Of a stretch of DNA of 34,241 nt, positions 11,472 to 17,969 are shown piece after piece. Where the stretch lies: assembly GCA_011390885.1 (NCBI GenBank), contig JAABRO010000029.1, positions 1 to 34,241 of the forward strand. The letters run 5' to 3'. How positions within the stretch are numbered: position 1 is the first letter of the stretch; every line of letters begins with the position of its first letter. The translations under genes were made by a program, and so were the position numbers. This stretch comes from Gemmatimonas sp. (GTDB lineage Bacteria > Gemmatimonadota > Gemmatimonadetes > Gemmatimonadales > Gemmatimonadaceae). The notes under the pieces are model-generated. The model was not told the origin of the DNA. It worked only from the letters and a program-made list of their open reading frames with translations, and made no database searches.

Positions 11472-12017
11472 TCAGCTGCGCCGGTCGCTGGGCGGACGCG
11501 AGAGCGGATCGTGTGCGGCCGGCGCGCGCACCGGCTCGGGCACGCGCGACGCGGCGGCGAAGTCGGGAGCGGCGACGCGCTCGGTGAGCAGCTTCGTGGT
11601 CAAGCGGTTCGCCTCGCTCATGCGCTCGACCTCGATGGCGACGGCATCGACCGCCTGCTCGATGGCCGCGAGTCGCCGGCCCACGTCCTCGGACGCCGGT
11701 GCGGCGACATTGCGCCGGTCGATCCAGCGCGCGATCGCGCGGCCGATCGGGAACGCCATGATCAGCCCGATCAATCCAGCGAAGCTGAGGAAGATGATCT
11801 CCGGCACCTGCGGCGGAATCATGTTGGCCGGGTCGAACGGAACGCCGGTCAGCTCGCCCGTCGGACCGACCTGATTGACGGTGAACCCGCCGTCTTCGCT
11901 GACGTTCACCTCGAACCTGGCACCGCCTGGTTGGGGTGCGGGCGTGCCCAGTGGCTGGGGGGCGGGCGGTGCGTCGGGCGCGGGCGGTTGAGGCGATCCC
12001 TGCAGTGCAACGGTCAT
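11472..12017 (-). CDS. Small single-pass membrane protein between kinase and regulator genes
   Basis: This 181-aa protein begins ATG 12017, overlapping the kinase stop as ATGA, and ends 32 bp before the regulator start. I do not recognise a family. The N-terminal 35 residues are Pro/Ala/Gln-rich (PQPPAPDAPPAPQPLGTPAP). A short strand-like part follows (ARFEVNVSEDGGFTVNQV), then one membrane helix at about residues 70-92 (IIFLSFAGLIGLIMAFPIG). A heptad-like stretch (VGRRLAAIEQAVDAVAIEVERMSEANRL, about 110-140) predicts a short coiled coil. Its fixed place between sensor and regulator suggests an accessory role in signalling, such as scaffolding or damping the kinase, but this is inference. Confidence 0.8.
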   Translation of the reverse strand: MTVALQGSPQPPAPDAPPAPQPLGTPAPQPGGARFEVNVSEDGGFTVNQVGPTGELTGVPFDPANMIPPQVPEIIFLSFAGLIGLIMAFPIGRAIARWIDRRNVAAPASEDVGRRLAAIEQAVDAVAIEVERMSEANRLTTKLLTERVAAPDFAAASRVPEPVRAPAAHDPLSRPPSDRRS

Positions 12018-13381
12018 GCGAACGCTCCGGAGGAGGACGGCGAGGCGAGTGGCATCGCGGTTTGCACGGGGAGGTGGAACCGGATTTCGGTGCCCGCACC
12101 GGGCGTGCTGTCGGCTTCGACCAGGCCACCGTGCGCGGTGATCGTCTGCCGCGCGATGGCGAGGCCAAGTCCGGTGCCGCCAGGCTTGGTGGTCACGTAC
12201 GGATCGAAGATGCGGGCGAGCGCCGTCGGCGCGATGCCGGGCCCGGTGTCACGGATGGCGATGGAGACGCACGGGCCGATGGCGCGCTCGTCGGCCCCGA
12301 CGCGTACCGAGATGGTGCCCGCCGCACCGCACGCCTCCACGGCGTTGATGAGCACGTTCGTCACCGCACGCACCAGCGGGTCATGGAAGCCGCGCACGAA
12401 GGGCAGGGCCTCTGCGACCTGCAGGTCGAGCGTGCAGGAATCAGGCACCGTGGCCTGCGCCGCGCGCGTGACGAGGTCACCCACGTCCACATCGGCAGCC
12501 GGCCCGTCGGGGAGGCGACCGAACTGCGCGAACGCGCGCGCCATGGTCTCGAGGCGTGAGGCTTCCTCGGCCAGCACCTCCACGGTGTCGTGCAACTCAG
12601 GTGGCGCGCCGCGCCGGAGCCGGTCCACCGCGAAGCGGATCGGCGTGAGCGGGTTCTTGAGCTCGTGCGCGAACCGGCGGGCCGACTCGCGAAAGGCCTC
12701 GGCGCGCTCGGCTTCGAGCGCCTGCCGCCGACCGGCCTCGAGTTCGTCGGCCATGGTGCGCATGCCGGTGCGCAGCACCTCGAACTCCGGGGCACCGCGG
12801 CGACGCGTGGCGGCCGGGAGGGCCGTGCCGGCGCGAATGAGTCCCGTCCAGCCCACGAGTTCGTCGAGCGGACGGCTGAGCTGGCGCGCGAGGTGGCCGG
12901 CCACCCGCGAGGCGCCGAGCGCGACGCCCACGAGCAGCACGAAGGCGCCGAGGGCGATGAGGCGCACCGTGCGGGGCACCACGAACCCGAAGCGCTTGGC
13001 CATCTCGATCGAGCGTCGCAGTTCCGCTTCATGCGCCGTGAGCGCCTCGCGCTGAGGATCGGTGAGCGGGGCGTCGGCCAGCGCCGAGATGGCGCGCTCG
13101 CCCGAGGCGCCGACGCGGTCCCAGGCCGACGTGGCGCCCACCAGCGGCAGGGTACGGCTCGTGGTGACCACCCACGCGACCGTGACGATGAGGGAGGGGA
13201 CCACCGCGAAGAGCAGCAGCACCGCGAAGAGCCGGGAGCGGAAGGGCGTGCGGGAGCGCCGTGGGGGACGCGCGGTGCCCTCCGGTTCGACGTTCGCCTC
13301 CGTACGGAGGGGCGCGAAGGCGGGTTTCGGCGGCTCGGCGTCGGGGGCCGACCGGGGGGTCGGCTTCCGCATCTCGTTCAT
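12014..13381 (-). CDS. Membrane sensor histidine kinase (NtrY-like)
   Basis: This first gene of the operon encodes 455 aa from ATG 13381; a second ATG lies three codons later. After a Pro/Arg-rich cytoplasmic N-terminus come two membrane helices (LFAVLLLFAVVPSLIVTVAW and IALGAFVLLVGVALGASRV) enclosing a small periplasmic domain of about 75 residues, then a HAMP-like linker. The H-box is FAHELKNPLTPIRF with phospho-accepting H239. The catalytic domain shows an N-box (NVLINAVEA), G1 (DTGPGIAP), F region (IFDPYVTTK) and G2 (GGTGLGLAIA). The HELKNPLTPI form is the one found in NtrY-type kinases paired with NtrX/NtrC regulators. That matches the sigma-54 activator downstream, its likely partner. 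The signal sensed is unknown; the small periplasmic loop and the downstream envelope proteins hint at an envelope cue. Confidence 0.92.
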   Translation of the reverse strand: MNEMRKPTPRSAPDAEPPKPAFAPLRTEANVEPEGTARPPRRSRTPFRSRLFAVLLLFAVVPSLIVTVAWVVTTSRTLPLVGATSAWDRVGASGERAISALADAPLTDPQREALTAHEAELRRSIEMAKRFGFVVPRTVRLIALGAFVLLVGVALGASRVAGHLARQLSRPLDELVGWTGLIRAGTALPAATRRRGAPEFEVLRTGMRTMADELEAGRRQALEAERAEAFRESARRFAHELKNPLTPIRFAVDRLRRGAPPELHDTVEVLAEEASRLETMARAFAQFGRLPDGPAADVDVGDLVTRAAQATVPDSCTLDLQVAEALPFVRGFHDPLVRAVTNVLINAVEACGAAGTISVRVGADERAIGPCVSIAIRDTGPGIAPTALARIFDPYVTTKPGGTGLGLAIARQTITAHGGLVEADSTPGAGTEIRFHLPVQTAMPLASPSSSGAFA

Positions 13382-13425
13382 GGCTGGTAATTTACACGAT
13401 TGTTCGTCCTTTCGATCGGAGCGGA
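13382..13425. promoter_or_regulatory. 44-bp divergent spacer between kinase operon and AMP-ligase gene
   Basis: This is the most AT-rich short stretch nearby (GGTAATTTACACGATTGT). On the minus strand it contains TAAATT (plus positions 13389-13394), a 4/6 match to a -10 box at about -13 to -8 from the kinase ATG, again close enough for a leaderless or near-leaderless start. On the plus strand, GGAG at 13418-13421 is a plausible ribosome-binding site for the ligase ATG at 13426. Any -35 for either gene would lie inside the opposite gene. Confidence 0.35.
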
Positions 13426-15003
13426 ATGCCAAGTCAGTGGACCCTCACCACCCAGTTCGCGTCGCACGTCCGGGATCACCCGGACCGCCTCGTCGTCCAG
13501 GGAAGTGACCGCTCGTACACGTTTCGACAGGTGGACACGCAGTCCGCGGCGCTCGCCGCCGCGTTTGCCGAACTCGGCATCGAGCAGGGAGATCGCGTCG
13601 CGGTCAACCTTCCCAACGGAGTGGAGTGGCTCGTCACCGTGCTCGCCTGCGCGCGACTCGGGGTGACGGTGGTGCCGGTGAGTCCGCAGCTGAACGTGCA
13701 CGAGCTGCGCTACCAGTTGCGGCACGCCGAGGCCAGCCTCGTCGTCACGATCGAACGTCTGGGCGCCGTGGACTTCCTGCAGCGCTTCGAGGACCTGCTC
13801 GTCGACCTGCCCGAACTGCAGTACGTGGTCACGGTGGGTGACGAGGATCTCTGGTACGACGACCGCATCTTCCAGTACGAAGACCTGCTGTCGAGTGGCC
13901 AGGGGCGTGCGATCCCCGTGGTCGAGGTCGACGACGCCGATGATTTCGCGGTGATCTACACCTCGGGCTCGTCGGGCAAGCCGAAGGGCGTGCGGCTGAG
14001 TCATCGCGCGCTGCTGGAGAACGCGACGCGCGCCGGCCAGGTGCTGGAACTCTCGCCGGACGACCGCGTGCTCACGCCGGTGCCGTACTTCACGGTGTTC
14101 GGCTTCTCGGGGCTGCTCGGTACGATCACCGCTGGTGCGACGCTGGTCGTCGTGCCGGAGTTCGAGGCTGGTGACGTGCTGCGGCTGATCGAAGCGCAGC
14201 GGGTCACCGTGCTGCACGGGGTGCCCACGATGTGGCACCTGCTCATGCGCGAGCCGGCATTCTCGCCGGCCCGCGTGGCGTCGTTGCGCACCGGCATCAT
14301 TGCCGGCACCGACGTGGCCGAGGAGCTGGTGCAGCGGGTGCGCGGGTGGTGTGACGTGCTCGTCGCGTACGGGCTCACGGAAACGGGGCCCACGGTGACG
14401 ATCACGCGCTTCAGCGACACCGATGAACGGCGCGCCGGCAGTGTGGGGCGCGCGCTCGAGGGGGTCGAGGTGATGGCGGTGGACGTCGTCACCGGCCTCC
14501 TGCACGGTCCGGAGGCGGTCGGCGAGATCGCCGTGCGCGGGCCGTATCTCATGCGCGGCTACCTGCGCATGCCGGCCGAGACCGCCAAGGTCCACACGCC
14601 GGAAGGGTTCTTTCTCACGGGTGATCTCGGCATCATCGATGAGGAAGGCTATGTCCGCATCGTCGGGCGCCGACGGGAGACCATCGCGCGTGGCGGGTAC
14701 CAGGTGTACCCGCGCGAGGTGGAGGACCGGTTGCGTGCGCACCCGGCAGTCGACGATGTCTGCGTCATCGGTATTCCCCACGATGTGCTGGGGGAGCAGG
14801 TGTGCGCATGCATCGTGCCCATGGAGGGCGCGGTCATCACCGGACGGGACATCATCCTGTTCGCGAAGGATGTGATGGCCGAATACAAGGTTCCCGATCT
14901 CGTGCGCTTCTACGATGCGTTCCCCATGTCGGGGAGCGGCAAGATTCGGCGGCGCGAGCTGGCGCGATCGATCGCGCTCGACCTCTCTGCATCGTACACC
15001 TGA
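13426..15003 (+). CDS. AMP-dependent acyl-CoA synthetase/ligase (ANL superfamily)
   Basis: This 525-aa adenylate-forming enzyme starts at ATG 13426 with GGAG 4 nt upstream. Signature motifs in order: P-loop IYTSGSSGKPKGVRLSH (A3), the aromatic region VPYFTVFGFSGLLG (A4), YGLTETGP (A5), FFLTGDLGIIDEEGYVRIVGR (A7/A8) with RGGYQVYPREVED after the hinge, and SGSGKIRRREL (A10) containing the catalytic Lys. The enzyme therefore should activate a carboxylate to an acyl-AMP and probably transfer it to CoA. The carboxylate is unknown; fatty or aryl acids are typical for this size. No beta-oxidation, carrier protein or thioesterase gene is beside it. The next gene (NYN protein) begins 4 bp after its stop, so the two are almost certainly co-transcribed. 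Confidence 0.92.
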   Translation: MPSQWTLTTQFASHVRDHPDRLVVQGSDRSYTFRQVDTQSAALAAAFAELGIEQGDRVAVNLPNGVEWLVTVLACARLGVTVVPVSPQLNVHELRYQLRHAEASLVVTIERLGAVDFLQRFEDLLVDLPELQYVVTVGDEDLWYDDRIFQYEDLLSSGQGRAIPVVEVDDADDFAVIYTSGSSGKPKGVRLSHRALLENATRAGQVLELSPDDRVLTPVPYFTVFGFSGLLGTITAGATLVVVPEFEAGDVLRLIEAQRVTVLHGVPTMWHLLMREPAFSPARVASLRTGIIAGTDVAEELVQRVRGWCDVLVAYGLTETGPTVTITRFSDTDERRAGSVGRALEGVEVMAVDVVTGLLHGPEAVGEIAVRGPYLMRGYLRMPAETAKVHTPEGFFLTGDLGIIDEEGYVRIVGRRRETIARGGYQVYPREVEDRLRAHPAVDDVCVIGIPHDVLGEQVCACIVPMEGAVITGRDIILFAKDVMAEYKVPDLVRFYDAFPMSGSGKIRRRELARSIALDLSASYT

Positions 15004-15007
15004 GTCC

Positions 15008-17332
15008 ATGTCCCCACGTCATCTTCGCCCGTCCGCGCCTCCCCGTCGTCCGGTGGCGCCGCTGCATCGCGGCCCGCAGGCCACGCCCCTGCCGTCGTCC
15101 ACCGCCGTCGTCGGCGGCACCCCGCCGGCCCACGCGCCGAACGCGGCCATGCTCATCGACTTCGACAACGTCACGATGGGCATCCGCTCCGACCTGCAGG
15201 AGGAGCTGAAGAACCTCCTCTCGTCGGACATCATCAAGGGCAAGGTCGCGGTGCGCCGCGCCTACGCCGACTGGCGCCGCTATCCGCAGTACATCGTGCC
15301 GCTCACCGAGGCCTCGATCGACCTCATCTTCGCGCCGGCCTACGGCTCCGCGAAGAAGAACGCGACCGACATCCGCCTGGCGATCGACGCGCTCGAACTC
15401 GTGTTCACGCGCCCCGAGATCGGCACCTTCGTGCTGCTCTCCGGCGACTCCGACTTCTCGAGCATGGTCATCAAGCTCAAGGAGTACGGCAAGTACGTCA
15501 TCGGCGTGGGCATCCGCGAGTCGTCGAGCGACCTGCTGGTCATGAACTGCGACGAGTACTACTCGTACAACGCGCTCGCCGGCCTGGTGCGCACGAGTGA
15601 CGAGGAAGTCACCCGCTGGGATCCGTGGGAGCTGGTGACCGAAGCGCTGCAGCGCATGAAGCGCAACGGCGACGTCATGCGCTCCGATCGCCTCAAGCAG
15701 GTCATGCAGGAGATCGACGCGCAGTTCGACGAGAAGAACCTCGGCATGTCGAAGTTCTCGCGCTTCGTGCAGGAAGCGCAGACGCGCGGCCTGATCGCCG
15801 TCACCAAGCTCGACAACGGTCAGCTCGAGATCGGCGTGCCCACGGGCGTGGCCACCACCATCGACGTGTCGAGCGATGCGGCCGAGGGTGAGGCCGCGGC
15901 GGCGTCGGGCGAGGAGGGCGAGCGTCGGGAGTCGCGTGAGGATCGCGAGGAGCGTCGCGGCCGTCGCGGCCGTCGCGGCCGCGGTCGTGATCGCGAGCGT
16001 GACGATCGGCCGCGGGCGGCCAGTGACGAGGCGCCCGTCGGTGCCGTGGCACCGGTGGGTGCGGTCGCTCCCGTTGCTGCCGCCGCGCCAGTGGGTGCAG
16101 TGGCTCCCGTTGGTGCCGTGGCGCCGGTGGGTGCGGTTGCTCCCGTTGGCGCCGTCGCGCCGGTTGGGGCGGTCGCTCCCGTTGGTGCGGTGGCGCCGGT
16201 GCGGGCCGCCGCGCCCGTCGGTGCCGTTGCGCCGGTCGGTGCGGTGGCGCCCGTCGGTGCCGTCGCCCCGGTCGGTGCGGTGGCGCCCGTCGGTGGTCGT
16301 GATCGCGATCGGGACCGCGATCGCGGCCGGGATCGGGATCGTGGGCGTGGTGCGGAGCGGGCGCCCGTGGCGGCGCCGGTGGCCGAAGCGACCAACGAGG
16401 AGATCGGGCAGAGCGGCGAGAAGCTCACGCGCGCCGAGGCGTTCGACCTCGTGCAGCGCGCCGTGACGTCGCTCGTGACCGGCGAGGCCGCGACGTCGGC
16501 CGAAGCGGTTCGGGTGAAGGCGTTCGAGCTCCTCGGCCGCGACTCCGAGACGCTGGCCGCGCGCATGTTCGAGCGCATCCTGCGCGACGCGCATGACGCG
16601 GACGTGATCGACCTGCGTCGTCGCGGTGACGGCTACGAGGTGGGCCGCGTGGCCGAGGCGGCCACGATCGCCGAGCAGCTCGCCAAGAAGGAAGAGCAGC
16701 TCGTGAAGGAGCAGAAGGCTGCCGCGATCGCGTCGGGGCAGGTCGCGCCGCGCGGACTCGGCATGCGTGGCCGCGCGCCGGCGCGCGGCGGAGCGCGCGG
16801 TGGCGCCACGCCGCCGCCCGAGCTGCTCATGGTCGGTGTGGTGAGCGCCAGCTCGAGCAAGCCGGCGGCCACGCCGGTCGCCGCGCCGGTGTCTGCGCCG
16901 GCCGCTGCAAGCACGCCTGCTGCGAGCACGCCCGCTGCGGCACCGGCGGCTGCGCCGGCACCGGCCGCGTCCGGCGCCGCGAAGGTGGAGACGGCGCCCA
17001 AGGGACGCAGCCGCGGCCGTGGTGGCCGTGGTGGTGCCGCGAAGGCGGCGGCTCCCAAGGCCGAACCCGTGAAGGCCGACGCGCCGAAGGCGGCGGCCCC
17101 CAAGGCCGCGCCCGCCAAGACCGACTCGGCCAAGGCCGACACGGGCAAGGCGCCCGCGAAGACCACGGCCAAGGCGCCGGCCAAGAAGGCGGCTGCGTCG
17201 GGCCGGAAGCCGGCGGCGAAGGCGGAGCCCGCTCCGGCCAAGGCCGCCGCGCCCGCGGCCGCGAAGCCGGCGAAGAAGTCGGCCAAGAAGGCGCCGGCGA
17301 AGAAGGCCCCCGCGAAGTCGGCCAAGAAGTAA
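15008..17332 (+). CDS. NYN-domain ribonuclease-like protein with LOTUS/OST-HTH domains and low-complexity tails
   Basis: This 774-aa modular protein starts at ATG 15008. Residues about 47-190 form a NYN (LabA/DUF88, PIN-like) domain with acidic positions D51 and D53 (MLIDFDN), D121 ([13 protein letters not shown]) and D147/D149 ([12 protein letters not shown]), enough for a metal-dependent RNA nuclease site. Residues about 205-280 ([13 protein letters not shown] through QLEIGVPTG) match an OST-HTH/LOTUS RNA-binding domain. A second, more divergent one lies at about 470-550. Between them are an Arg/Glu-rich run, 14 APVGAV hexapeptides (342-430) and an Arg-Asp-Arg-Gly stretch. The last about 95 residues are a Lys-Ala-Pro tail like histone H1 ending [10 protein letters not shown]. 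Likely roles are RNA binding, turnover or granule-type assembly; these are inferred from domains. Co-transcribed with the ligase upstream. Confidence 0.85.
16031..16297 (+). repeat. In-frame 18-bp repeats encoding 14 APVGAV hexapeptides
   Basis: Within the NYN gene the protein sequence is 14 successive hexapeptides APVGAV. Only two are degenerate (APVAAA as the third and APVRAA as the tenth), followed by a partial APVGG. Synonymous codons vary between units (GTC/GTT/GTG, GCG/GCC), so the array is not a fresh DNA duplication throughout. Val-Pro-Gly-Ala composition is elastin-like and predicts disorder. Flanking segments are Arg/Asp-rich. Confidence 0.9.
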
Positions 17333-17340
17333 GGACAGCC

Positions 17341-17372
17341 TCCCGCACCGCGCCCTGGCGCGCGGTGCGGGA
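17341..17372 (+). terminator. Strong GC hairpin after the NYN gene
   Basis: TCCCGCACCGCGC (17341-17353), loop CCTGGC, GCGCGGTGCGGGA (17360-17372) is a perfect 13-bp stem 8 nt after the NYN stop. No T-run follows, so termination may depend on Rho or on the hairpin alone. It also separates the NYN gene from the glycosylase start at 17397. Confidence 0.6.
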
Positions 17373-17396
17373 CGTGGTCCGGCTCCGCGCTCCATC

Positions 17397-17969
17397 GTGT
17401 CGTACGGCACCCCGCTCGAGTCCGCGTTCTACGATCGTGATCCTGCGATCGTGGCGCGCGCCCTGCTGGGTGCCGTGCTGCGTTCGGAGGTGGACGGCGT
17501 CGTGACCAGTGGCGTGATCATCGAGACCGAGGCGTACCTGGGGCCGCACGATCCGGCCTGTCACGCCGTTGCGGGTCGCACCGCACGCACCTGGCATCTC
17601 TTCGGGCCGCCGGGCACGGCCTATGTGTACTTCATCTACGGCATGCACTGGTGCGTGAATGCCGTCACGCGCGAGGACGGCTACGGCAGCGCCGTGCTGA
17701 TCCGCGCCCTCGAGCCGCTCGAAGGGGTGGAGGTCATGCGTATGCGTCGACCAAAGGCGCGCCGCGACCGGGAGCTGTGCAACGGCCCCGGCAAGCTGTG
17801 CGCCGCACTCGGGATCACGCGCGCGCAGGACGGCGCGAGGCTGCAGCAGGGCGTGCTTACCATCCACGCCGGCGCCGAGGTGCCCGATGCCGAGGTGGAG
17901 GTGACGCCGCGCATCGGGATCAGCAAGGCCGCTGATTGGCCGCTGCGCTGGGTGCGTGTGCGGCGGTAG
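17397..17969 (+). CDS. mpg: DNA-3-methyladenine glycosylase (AAG/MPG family)
   Basis: This 190-aa base-excision-repair enzyme releases alkylated and deaminated purines from DNA. The GTG start at 17397 is the only reasonable one after the upstream hairpin. Family motifs are clear: GVIIETEAYLGPHDPACHA carries the catalytic Glu that activates water, RTWHLFGPPGTAYVYFIYGMHWCVN contains the DNA-intercalating Tyr region, and LCNGPGKLCAALGI is the C-terminal signature. The length fits bacterial members. No operon partner follows; it is convergent with the M14 peptidase gene across a palindromic gap. Confidence 0.95.
   Translation: MSYGTPLESAFYDRDPAIVARALLGAVLRSEVDGVVTSGVIIETEAYLGPHDPACHAVAGRTARTWHLFGPPGTAYVYFIYGMHWCVNAVTREDGYGSAVLIRALEPLEGVEVMRMRRPKARRDRELCNGPGKLCAALGITRAQDGARLQQGVLTIHAGAEVPDAEVEVTPRIGISKAADWPLRWVRVRR

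Follow-up and report, generated by a model that had tools for sequence, protein, structure and literature searches.

A near-universal NYN-LOTUS protein of a Gemmatimonadota class, predicted to be an endoribonuclease with flexible charged tethers

The window analyzed here, a 34,241-nucleotide stretch from the genome of a soil bacterium, Gemmatimonas sp. (GCA_011390885.1, contig JAABRO010000029.1), encodes a protein in which an NYN nuclease domain is followed by a first LOTUS (OST-HTH) domain, an Arg/Gly linker, a second LOTUS domain and a Lys/Ala/Pro tail (Table 1). The open reading frame (ORF) is a real gene, with orthologues in 112 of 119 relatives and in 186 of the 200 genomes sampled from the phylum. 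We propose, with a probability of about 0.62, that its product is a metal-dependent endoribonuclease, encoded on the chromosome in a single copy, that tethers RNA multivalently. The N-terminal NYN domain would cut single-stranded RNA through a center made up of D51, D121 and D147, while the two LOTUS winged helices, on flexible Arg/Gly-rich tethers, and the Lys-rich tail would grip RNA through numerous weak contacts. The two disordered ends each have a short motif (APxHRGPQA and PPxLLxxGVV, respectively) that may serve for docking, either of a partner protein or of the enzyme itself. Such a protein would be a stand-alone RNA-turnover enzyme and possibly also a multivalent scaffold that concentrates RNA, in the manner of proteobacterial RNase E with its disordered tail. 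It is from MARF1, DNE1 and RNase E (PMC6294520, PMC10226599, PMC10412687) that we infer an RNA substrate, its cleavage and binding, the docking, and any scaffolding or condensates.

As the preliminary description of this DNA had proposed, the N-terminal part is an NYN domain: Pfam NYN matches residues 46–186 (E = 2.2e-24) and was found in 46 out of 46 relatives, and an NCBIfam search gave nothing beyond one distant NYN model. When a profile of these 46 relatives was compared with PDB sequences, the sole match below 0.1 was VPA0982 (2qip; 6.6e-5), and the profile alignment places D51, D121 and D147, all invariant across the relatives, onto D14, D92 and D115 of VPA0982. A published comparison equates those residues with D358, D426 and D452 of MARF1 and with the essential D13 and its partners in a Bacteroides NYN protein, and the three catalytic aspartates of MARF1-like NYN endoribonucleases are thus present. 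The characterized NYN domains of MARF1 and of the Bacteroides CRISPR NYN protein cut single-stranded RNA (PMC6294520, PMC11346440). This is the only NYN gene that we found in its own genome.

The two LOTUS domains, one described beforehand as clear and the other as divergent, are both borne out, by different routes. In the first of the two stretches proposed (residues 205–280), Pfam OST-HTH matches LOTUS1 at 213–256 (E = 0.0022, 18.3 bits), under its cut-off (18.3/21.4 vs 23.8 bits); it also matches LOTUS1 in 41 of 46 relatives (best E-value 6e-6), and AlphaFold2 (AF2) gives the domain a winged-helix topology with a predicted local distance difference test score (pLDDT) of about 88–96. In the second stretch (470–550) Pfam finds nothing: OST-HTH matches LOTUS2, at about 469–546, in 0 of 66 family members, so a direct Pfam search alone would not support a second LOTUS domain. 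The deeper orthologues do. Of the nine class- and order-level orthologues scanned, six have two OST-HTH stretches by Pfam, and scores in deep orthologues are above the cut-off, at 36–51 bits with two stretches each. In several genomes an NYN-LOTUS1 profile matches a second domain of the same ORF again (about 1e-11 to 3e-13), and with the LOTUS1 profile 11 deep orthologues gave a match at domain 2 (5e-16 to 1.5e-9). Once these 11 had been added, the profile matched LOTUS2 of the window protein as well, at 2.3e-4 and later at 3e-28, and 0 of 1760 shuffled controls matched the iterated profile. Modeled alone, LOTUS2 is predicted to fold as helix, strand, helix, helix, strand, strand, and its pLDDT blocks lie at 84–93; in the full-length model it reaches about 88–96, again with a winged-helix fold. 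Because of the iterated profile through the orthologues, the clean shuffled controls and this fold, we count LOTUS2 as a second OST-HTH domain, and its profile similarity marks it as a diverged copy of LOTUS1.

Comparisons with known structures are less specific. LOTUS2 matched nothing among the PDB sequences, Foldseek and VIA-align returned only generic winged helices for it, and the structural matches to the full-length model include the LOTUS domains 3rco, 2lh9 and 2kzv amid other winged helices, which is not decisive. A G-quadruplex property has been attributed to LOTUS domains (via PMC10226599).

Outside the folded domains, over 400 of the 774 residues are predicted to be disordered or are unmodeled, and the linker and tail, for which disorder prediction had been suggested, mostly have pLDDT values below 50 in the full-length model. 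Within Gemmatimonadaceae, where NYN-LOTUS1 identity is 78–94%, the Arg-rich, charged low-complexity spacers of the preliminary description are a constant feature: an Arg/Gly patch (at least 9 of 12 residues R or G) is present in 69 of 69 orthologues, and a basic tail (K+R making up at least 20% of the final 60 residues) in 68 of 69. The inter-LOTUS linker itself ranges from 79 to 208 residues among relatives. The acidic and Arg blocks at residues 293–336, with pLDDT below 50, are Arg-rich charge blocks in disorder, as in the RNase E scaffold. The Lys/Ala/Pro tail is as first described, and a scan of about 10% of the genome (256 putative genes) turned up no second one, which led us to reject the idea that such tails are generic to this genome. 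The tail had also been likened to histone H1, and the likeness is one of composition.

Both disordered ends carry a conserved short motif. In a 44-row alignment, R21, G22 and P23 of the N-terminal APLHRGPQA are invariant and A17, H20, Q24 and A25 nearly so; many deep orthologues have a reduced form, (R/K)APH(R/Q)G. The motif is tandemly duplicated at the N-termini of two relatives (L096, L086) and of a third (L052) in which the second copy is altered. In the C-terminal motif, R587, G610 and V612 are invariant and R582, G583, R597, P603, L606, L607 and V611 nearly so in the same alignment, and a strict form occurs in 41 of 69 proteins, compared with a shuffle rate of 0.0003. One relative (L022) has this motif doubled. 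Two others (L107, L105) have lost LOTUS2 and kept NYN-LOTUS1 and PPxLLxxGVV, a natural deletion which shows the motif to be independent of LOTUS2. A DNA pattern search for PPxLLxxGVV hit the window's own genome once, in this gene, and gave one extra match outside the gene among six genomes; this result leaves unsupported the idea that PPxLLxxGVV is a docking motif shared with a family of other proteins.

The most striking low-complexity segment, the APVGAV array, behaves differently. Its hexapeptides had been counted as 14; the array is there, with 15 units of which 12 are exact, and is underlain at the DNA level by an 18/36-bp tandem repeat at 16030–16295. The repeats had also been called elastin-like, a label that we drop: VPGXG-type repeats with Pro-Gly turns were not found, the unit APVGAV and the array as a whole being devoid of Pro-Gly. 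Comparison of repeat copy number among relatives, proposed as a check, gave 12, 8, 7 and 0 exact copies within the genus (the last in L033) and 0 copies in every relative examined outside it, unlike the Arg/Gly patch and basic tail. The array is a genus-level minisatellite; being confined to the genus, it is not part of the functional core and cannot define function. In a further member of the genus (L032) the reading frame is lost directly past the array, and in another relative (L035) the contig stops shortly before its expected start; both breaks are likely assembly trouble at the repeat, and copy numbers are therefore uncertain. A replication-slippage origin in a GC-rich genome, with a function in spacing only, could be extended from this tandem repeat, which is found in the genus only, to all of the low-complexity regions. 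We consider that extension very improbable, since it holds for the array only: the Arg/Gly patches, the Lys tail and both linear motifs are retained from family to family, though at varying spacing, and the tail has the uniqueness described above.

Table 1. Features of the NYN-LOTUS gene; coordinates are positions in the window.
Feature	Residues	Coordinates	Strand	Evidence
Whole coding sequence, 774 residues plus stop		15008..17332	+	ORF; orthologues in relatives and phylum genomes
N-terminal motif APLHRGPQA, in disordered proline-rich leader	17-25	15056..15082	+	Conservation
NYN/PIN-like nuclease domain with D51, D121, D147	45-193	15140..15586	+	Pfam NYN; VPA0982/2qip profile match; invariance
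LOTUS1 / OST-HTH	205-277	15620..15838	+	Pfam OST-HTH, 18-21 bits; AF2 winged helix
Acidic block, then Arg/Gly patch	293-336	15884..16015	+	Patch in all family orthologues tested
APVGAV hexapeptide array, 15 units, 12 exact	342-431	16031..16300	+	18/36-bp tandem repeat
Second Arg/Asp/Gly patch	430-448	16295..16351	+	Sequence
LOTUS2, diverged winged-helix domain	469-546	16412..16645	+	Iterated LOTUS1 profile; AF2 winged helix-turn-helix
C-terminal motif RGMGxRG...PPxLLxxGVV, after LOTUS2	581-612	16748..16843	+	Conservation
Lys/Ala/Pro tail, 25 Lys, net charge about +21	677-774	17036..17329	+	Composition

The gene begins at ATG 15008, 4 bases past the stop codon of an upstream acyl-CoA synthetase gene; we favor this start over an ATG further in, at the NYN domain, since it takes in APLHRGPQA, which is conserved in relatives. 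In the window, positions 12014–17969 hold a divergent sensor histidine kinase gene, the acyl-CoA synthetase gene, the NYN-LOTUS gene and a 3-methyladenine DNA glycosylase gene, an order conserved through much of the class. The acyl-CoA synthetase gene lies upstream at 56 loci, and the glycosylase gene downstream on the same strand at 86 loci, among them those of nearly all sampled deep families (some of the loci are duplicates). No orthologue of the NYN-LOTUS protein was found in one deep family, f10 (all six sampled genomes), or in f8 (both). In one single-contig genome (G179) the NYN part and the two-LOTUS part are separate ORFs, at C1:1765839 and C1:1126829, about 640 kb apart, perhaps through a rearrangement that split the gene.

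In several deeper families a helix-hairpin-helix domain, matched below threshold by HHH_5 (E 1e-4 to 1e-2), takes the place of the Lys-rich tail at the C-terminus, and it is present in 0 of 69 Gemmatimonadaceae orthologues. We see it, as Y+GVGKKTAE..., near the C-terminus in L124, L118, L120, L127 and L130; three other proteins (L113, L115, L129) terminate in an amphipathic-looking helix (e.g. GGGLLKRVTSAIQKAVLG). Because this module is common in DNA-repair proteins, it brings up a different role, that of a PIN-superfamily nuclease whose winged-helix, helix-hairpin-helix and H1-like tail modules bind DNA and which acts on DNA or RNA-DNA hybrids in genome maintenance. The same-strand glycosylase gene would fit that role, as would the linker-histone-like composition of the tail and the structural alignment of LOTUS2 with many DNA-binding winged helices, among them linker-histone H1 globular domains. 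Those alignments (Z about 7.5–9.1) are similar to the ones with many other winged helices, all ordinary winged helix-turn-helix folds, and stand alongside the iterated profile that links LOTUS2 to LOTUS1 in sequence. Moreover, helix-hairpin-helix domains are found in RNA-binding proteins too, the conserved neighbors may be mere vertical synteny, and the closest characterized relatives with NYN and LOTUS domains, MARF1 and DNE1, act on mRNA (PMC6294520, PMC10226599). We regard a DNA role, although the foremost alternative, as unlikely.

The comparison with RNase E raises the matter of scaffolding. Like RNase E with its C-terminal scaffold, which forms bacterial ribonucleoprotein (BR-) bodies, the window protein would combine an endoribonuclease with a disordered, Arg-rich charge-block tail and a short partner-binding motif (PMC10412687); unlike RNase E, it has an unrelated catalytic domain and folded LOTUS domains within its tail. 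The RNase E/G of the same genome is 536 residues long and has no disordered scaffold tail at its end; a scaffold-tail function, if there is one, therefore resides elsewhere. Condensate formation by the NYN-LOTUS protein is plausible, the supporting fact being that its charge and short motifs persist across the class while the sequence of the disordered regions drifts. One could go further and view the protein as chiefly an RNA condensate scaffold, an organizer of bacterial ribonucleoprotein bodies in which nuclease activity is secondary and phase separation is driven by the low-complexity regions together with the tandem RNA-binding domains. The extent of disorder, the conserved acidic/Arg blocks and the Lys tail are in keeping with this, as are the Caulobacter RNase E condensates, which are driven by Arg-rich charge blocks (PMC10412687), and the presence of DNE1 in P-bodies (PMC10226599). 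We nevertheless judge it decidedly unlikely: its most conspicuous low-complexity segment, the APVGAV array, is confined to the genus, and the catalytic residues are strictly conserved, which argues that cleavage is under selection. A class-wide organizer of ribonucleoprotein granules, in which a nuclease-scaffold like DNE1 and MARF1 in P-bodies, and unlike RNase E, gathers RNA and partners into condensates via its LOTUS domains, charged disordered tails and unique PPxLLxxGVV docking motif, is a doubtful proposal that we put forward only tentatively.

Several points weigh against the tethered endoribonuclease that we prefer. The genome also has RNase Y, which could be its main decay enzyme, and the neighboring acyl-CoA synthetase and 3-methyladenine DNA glycosylase genes offer no RNA link. 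The scaffolding parallel with RNase E is an analogy only. Finally, AF2 models the NYN domain poorly in the full-length protein (pLDDT about 30–45), probably owing to a shallow alignment (83% mean identity), and the NYN assignment consequently rests on sequence.

The general plan is an established one. Anantharaman, Zhang and Aravind described in 2010 bacterial LK-nuclease (DUF88/NYN) domains fused to single or duplicated OST-HTH domains, predicted these widespread bacterial proteins to be stand-alone RNA-degrading enzymes and proposed that the eukaryotic LOTUS nucleases arose from them (PMC2848206). The window protein shares with that family its N-terminal NYN/DUF88 domain, the OST-HTH domain C-terminal to it and the second OST-HTH domain. 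It differs in that its relatives space the LOTUS domains by the long disordered linker and have conserved linear motifs at both ends, and in that deep orthologues add the helix-hairpin-helix domain; the gene neighborhood is conserved within the class, whereas no link with known RNA-processing systems is reported in PMC2848206. It is thus a new, well-defined form of the 2010 family, set apart by its long disordered spacing, by a pair of conserved linear motifs, by an exchanged C-terminal module and by being almost universal in the class. Plasmid-borne Burkholderiales NYN proteins (e.g. WP_301260509.1 from Eleftheria terrae) are about 34–36% identical over NYN-LOTUS and likewise have a basic, Ala/Pro/Lys/Arg-rich disordered C-terminus, so that the general plan extends beyond the class; in three such sequences inspected by eye we saw no second LOTUS domain, N-terminal APxHRGPQA or PPxLLxxGVV.

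Among eukaryotic proteins, Arabidopsis DNE1, which has an NYN and two LOTUS domains and localizes to P-bodies (PMC10226599), shows the same NYN-LOTUS-LOTUS plan, and the likeness to RNA-granule proteins drawn in the preliminary description is apt. MARF1 has the same NYN Asp triad and more than two LOTUS domains; it differs in its RRMs, in having up to eight LOTUS domains and in binding decapping factors that are absent from bacteria.

The open literature that we searched yielded neither an experimental study of a bacterial NYN-LOTUS protein nor a paper on one from Gemmatimonadota. The protein described here is a near-universal, single-copy NYN-LOTUS-LOTUS example through a whole bacterial class, with the plan of DNE1 plus charged disordered tails. 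It lets one test whether the link between LOTUS domains and RNA granules predates eukaryotes, and whether nucleases other than RNase E can bear scaffold tails.
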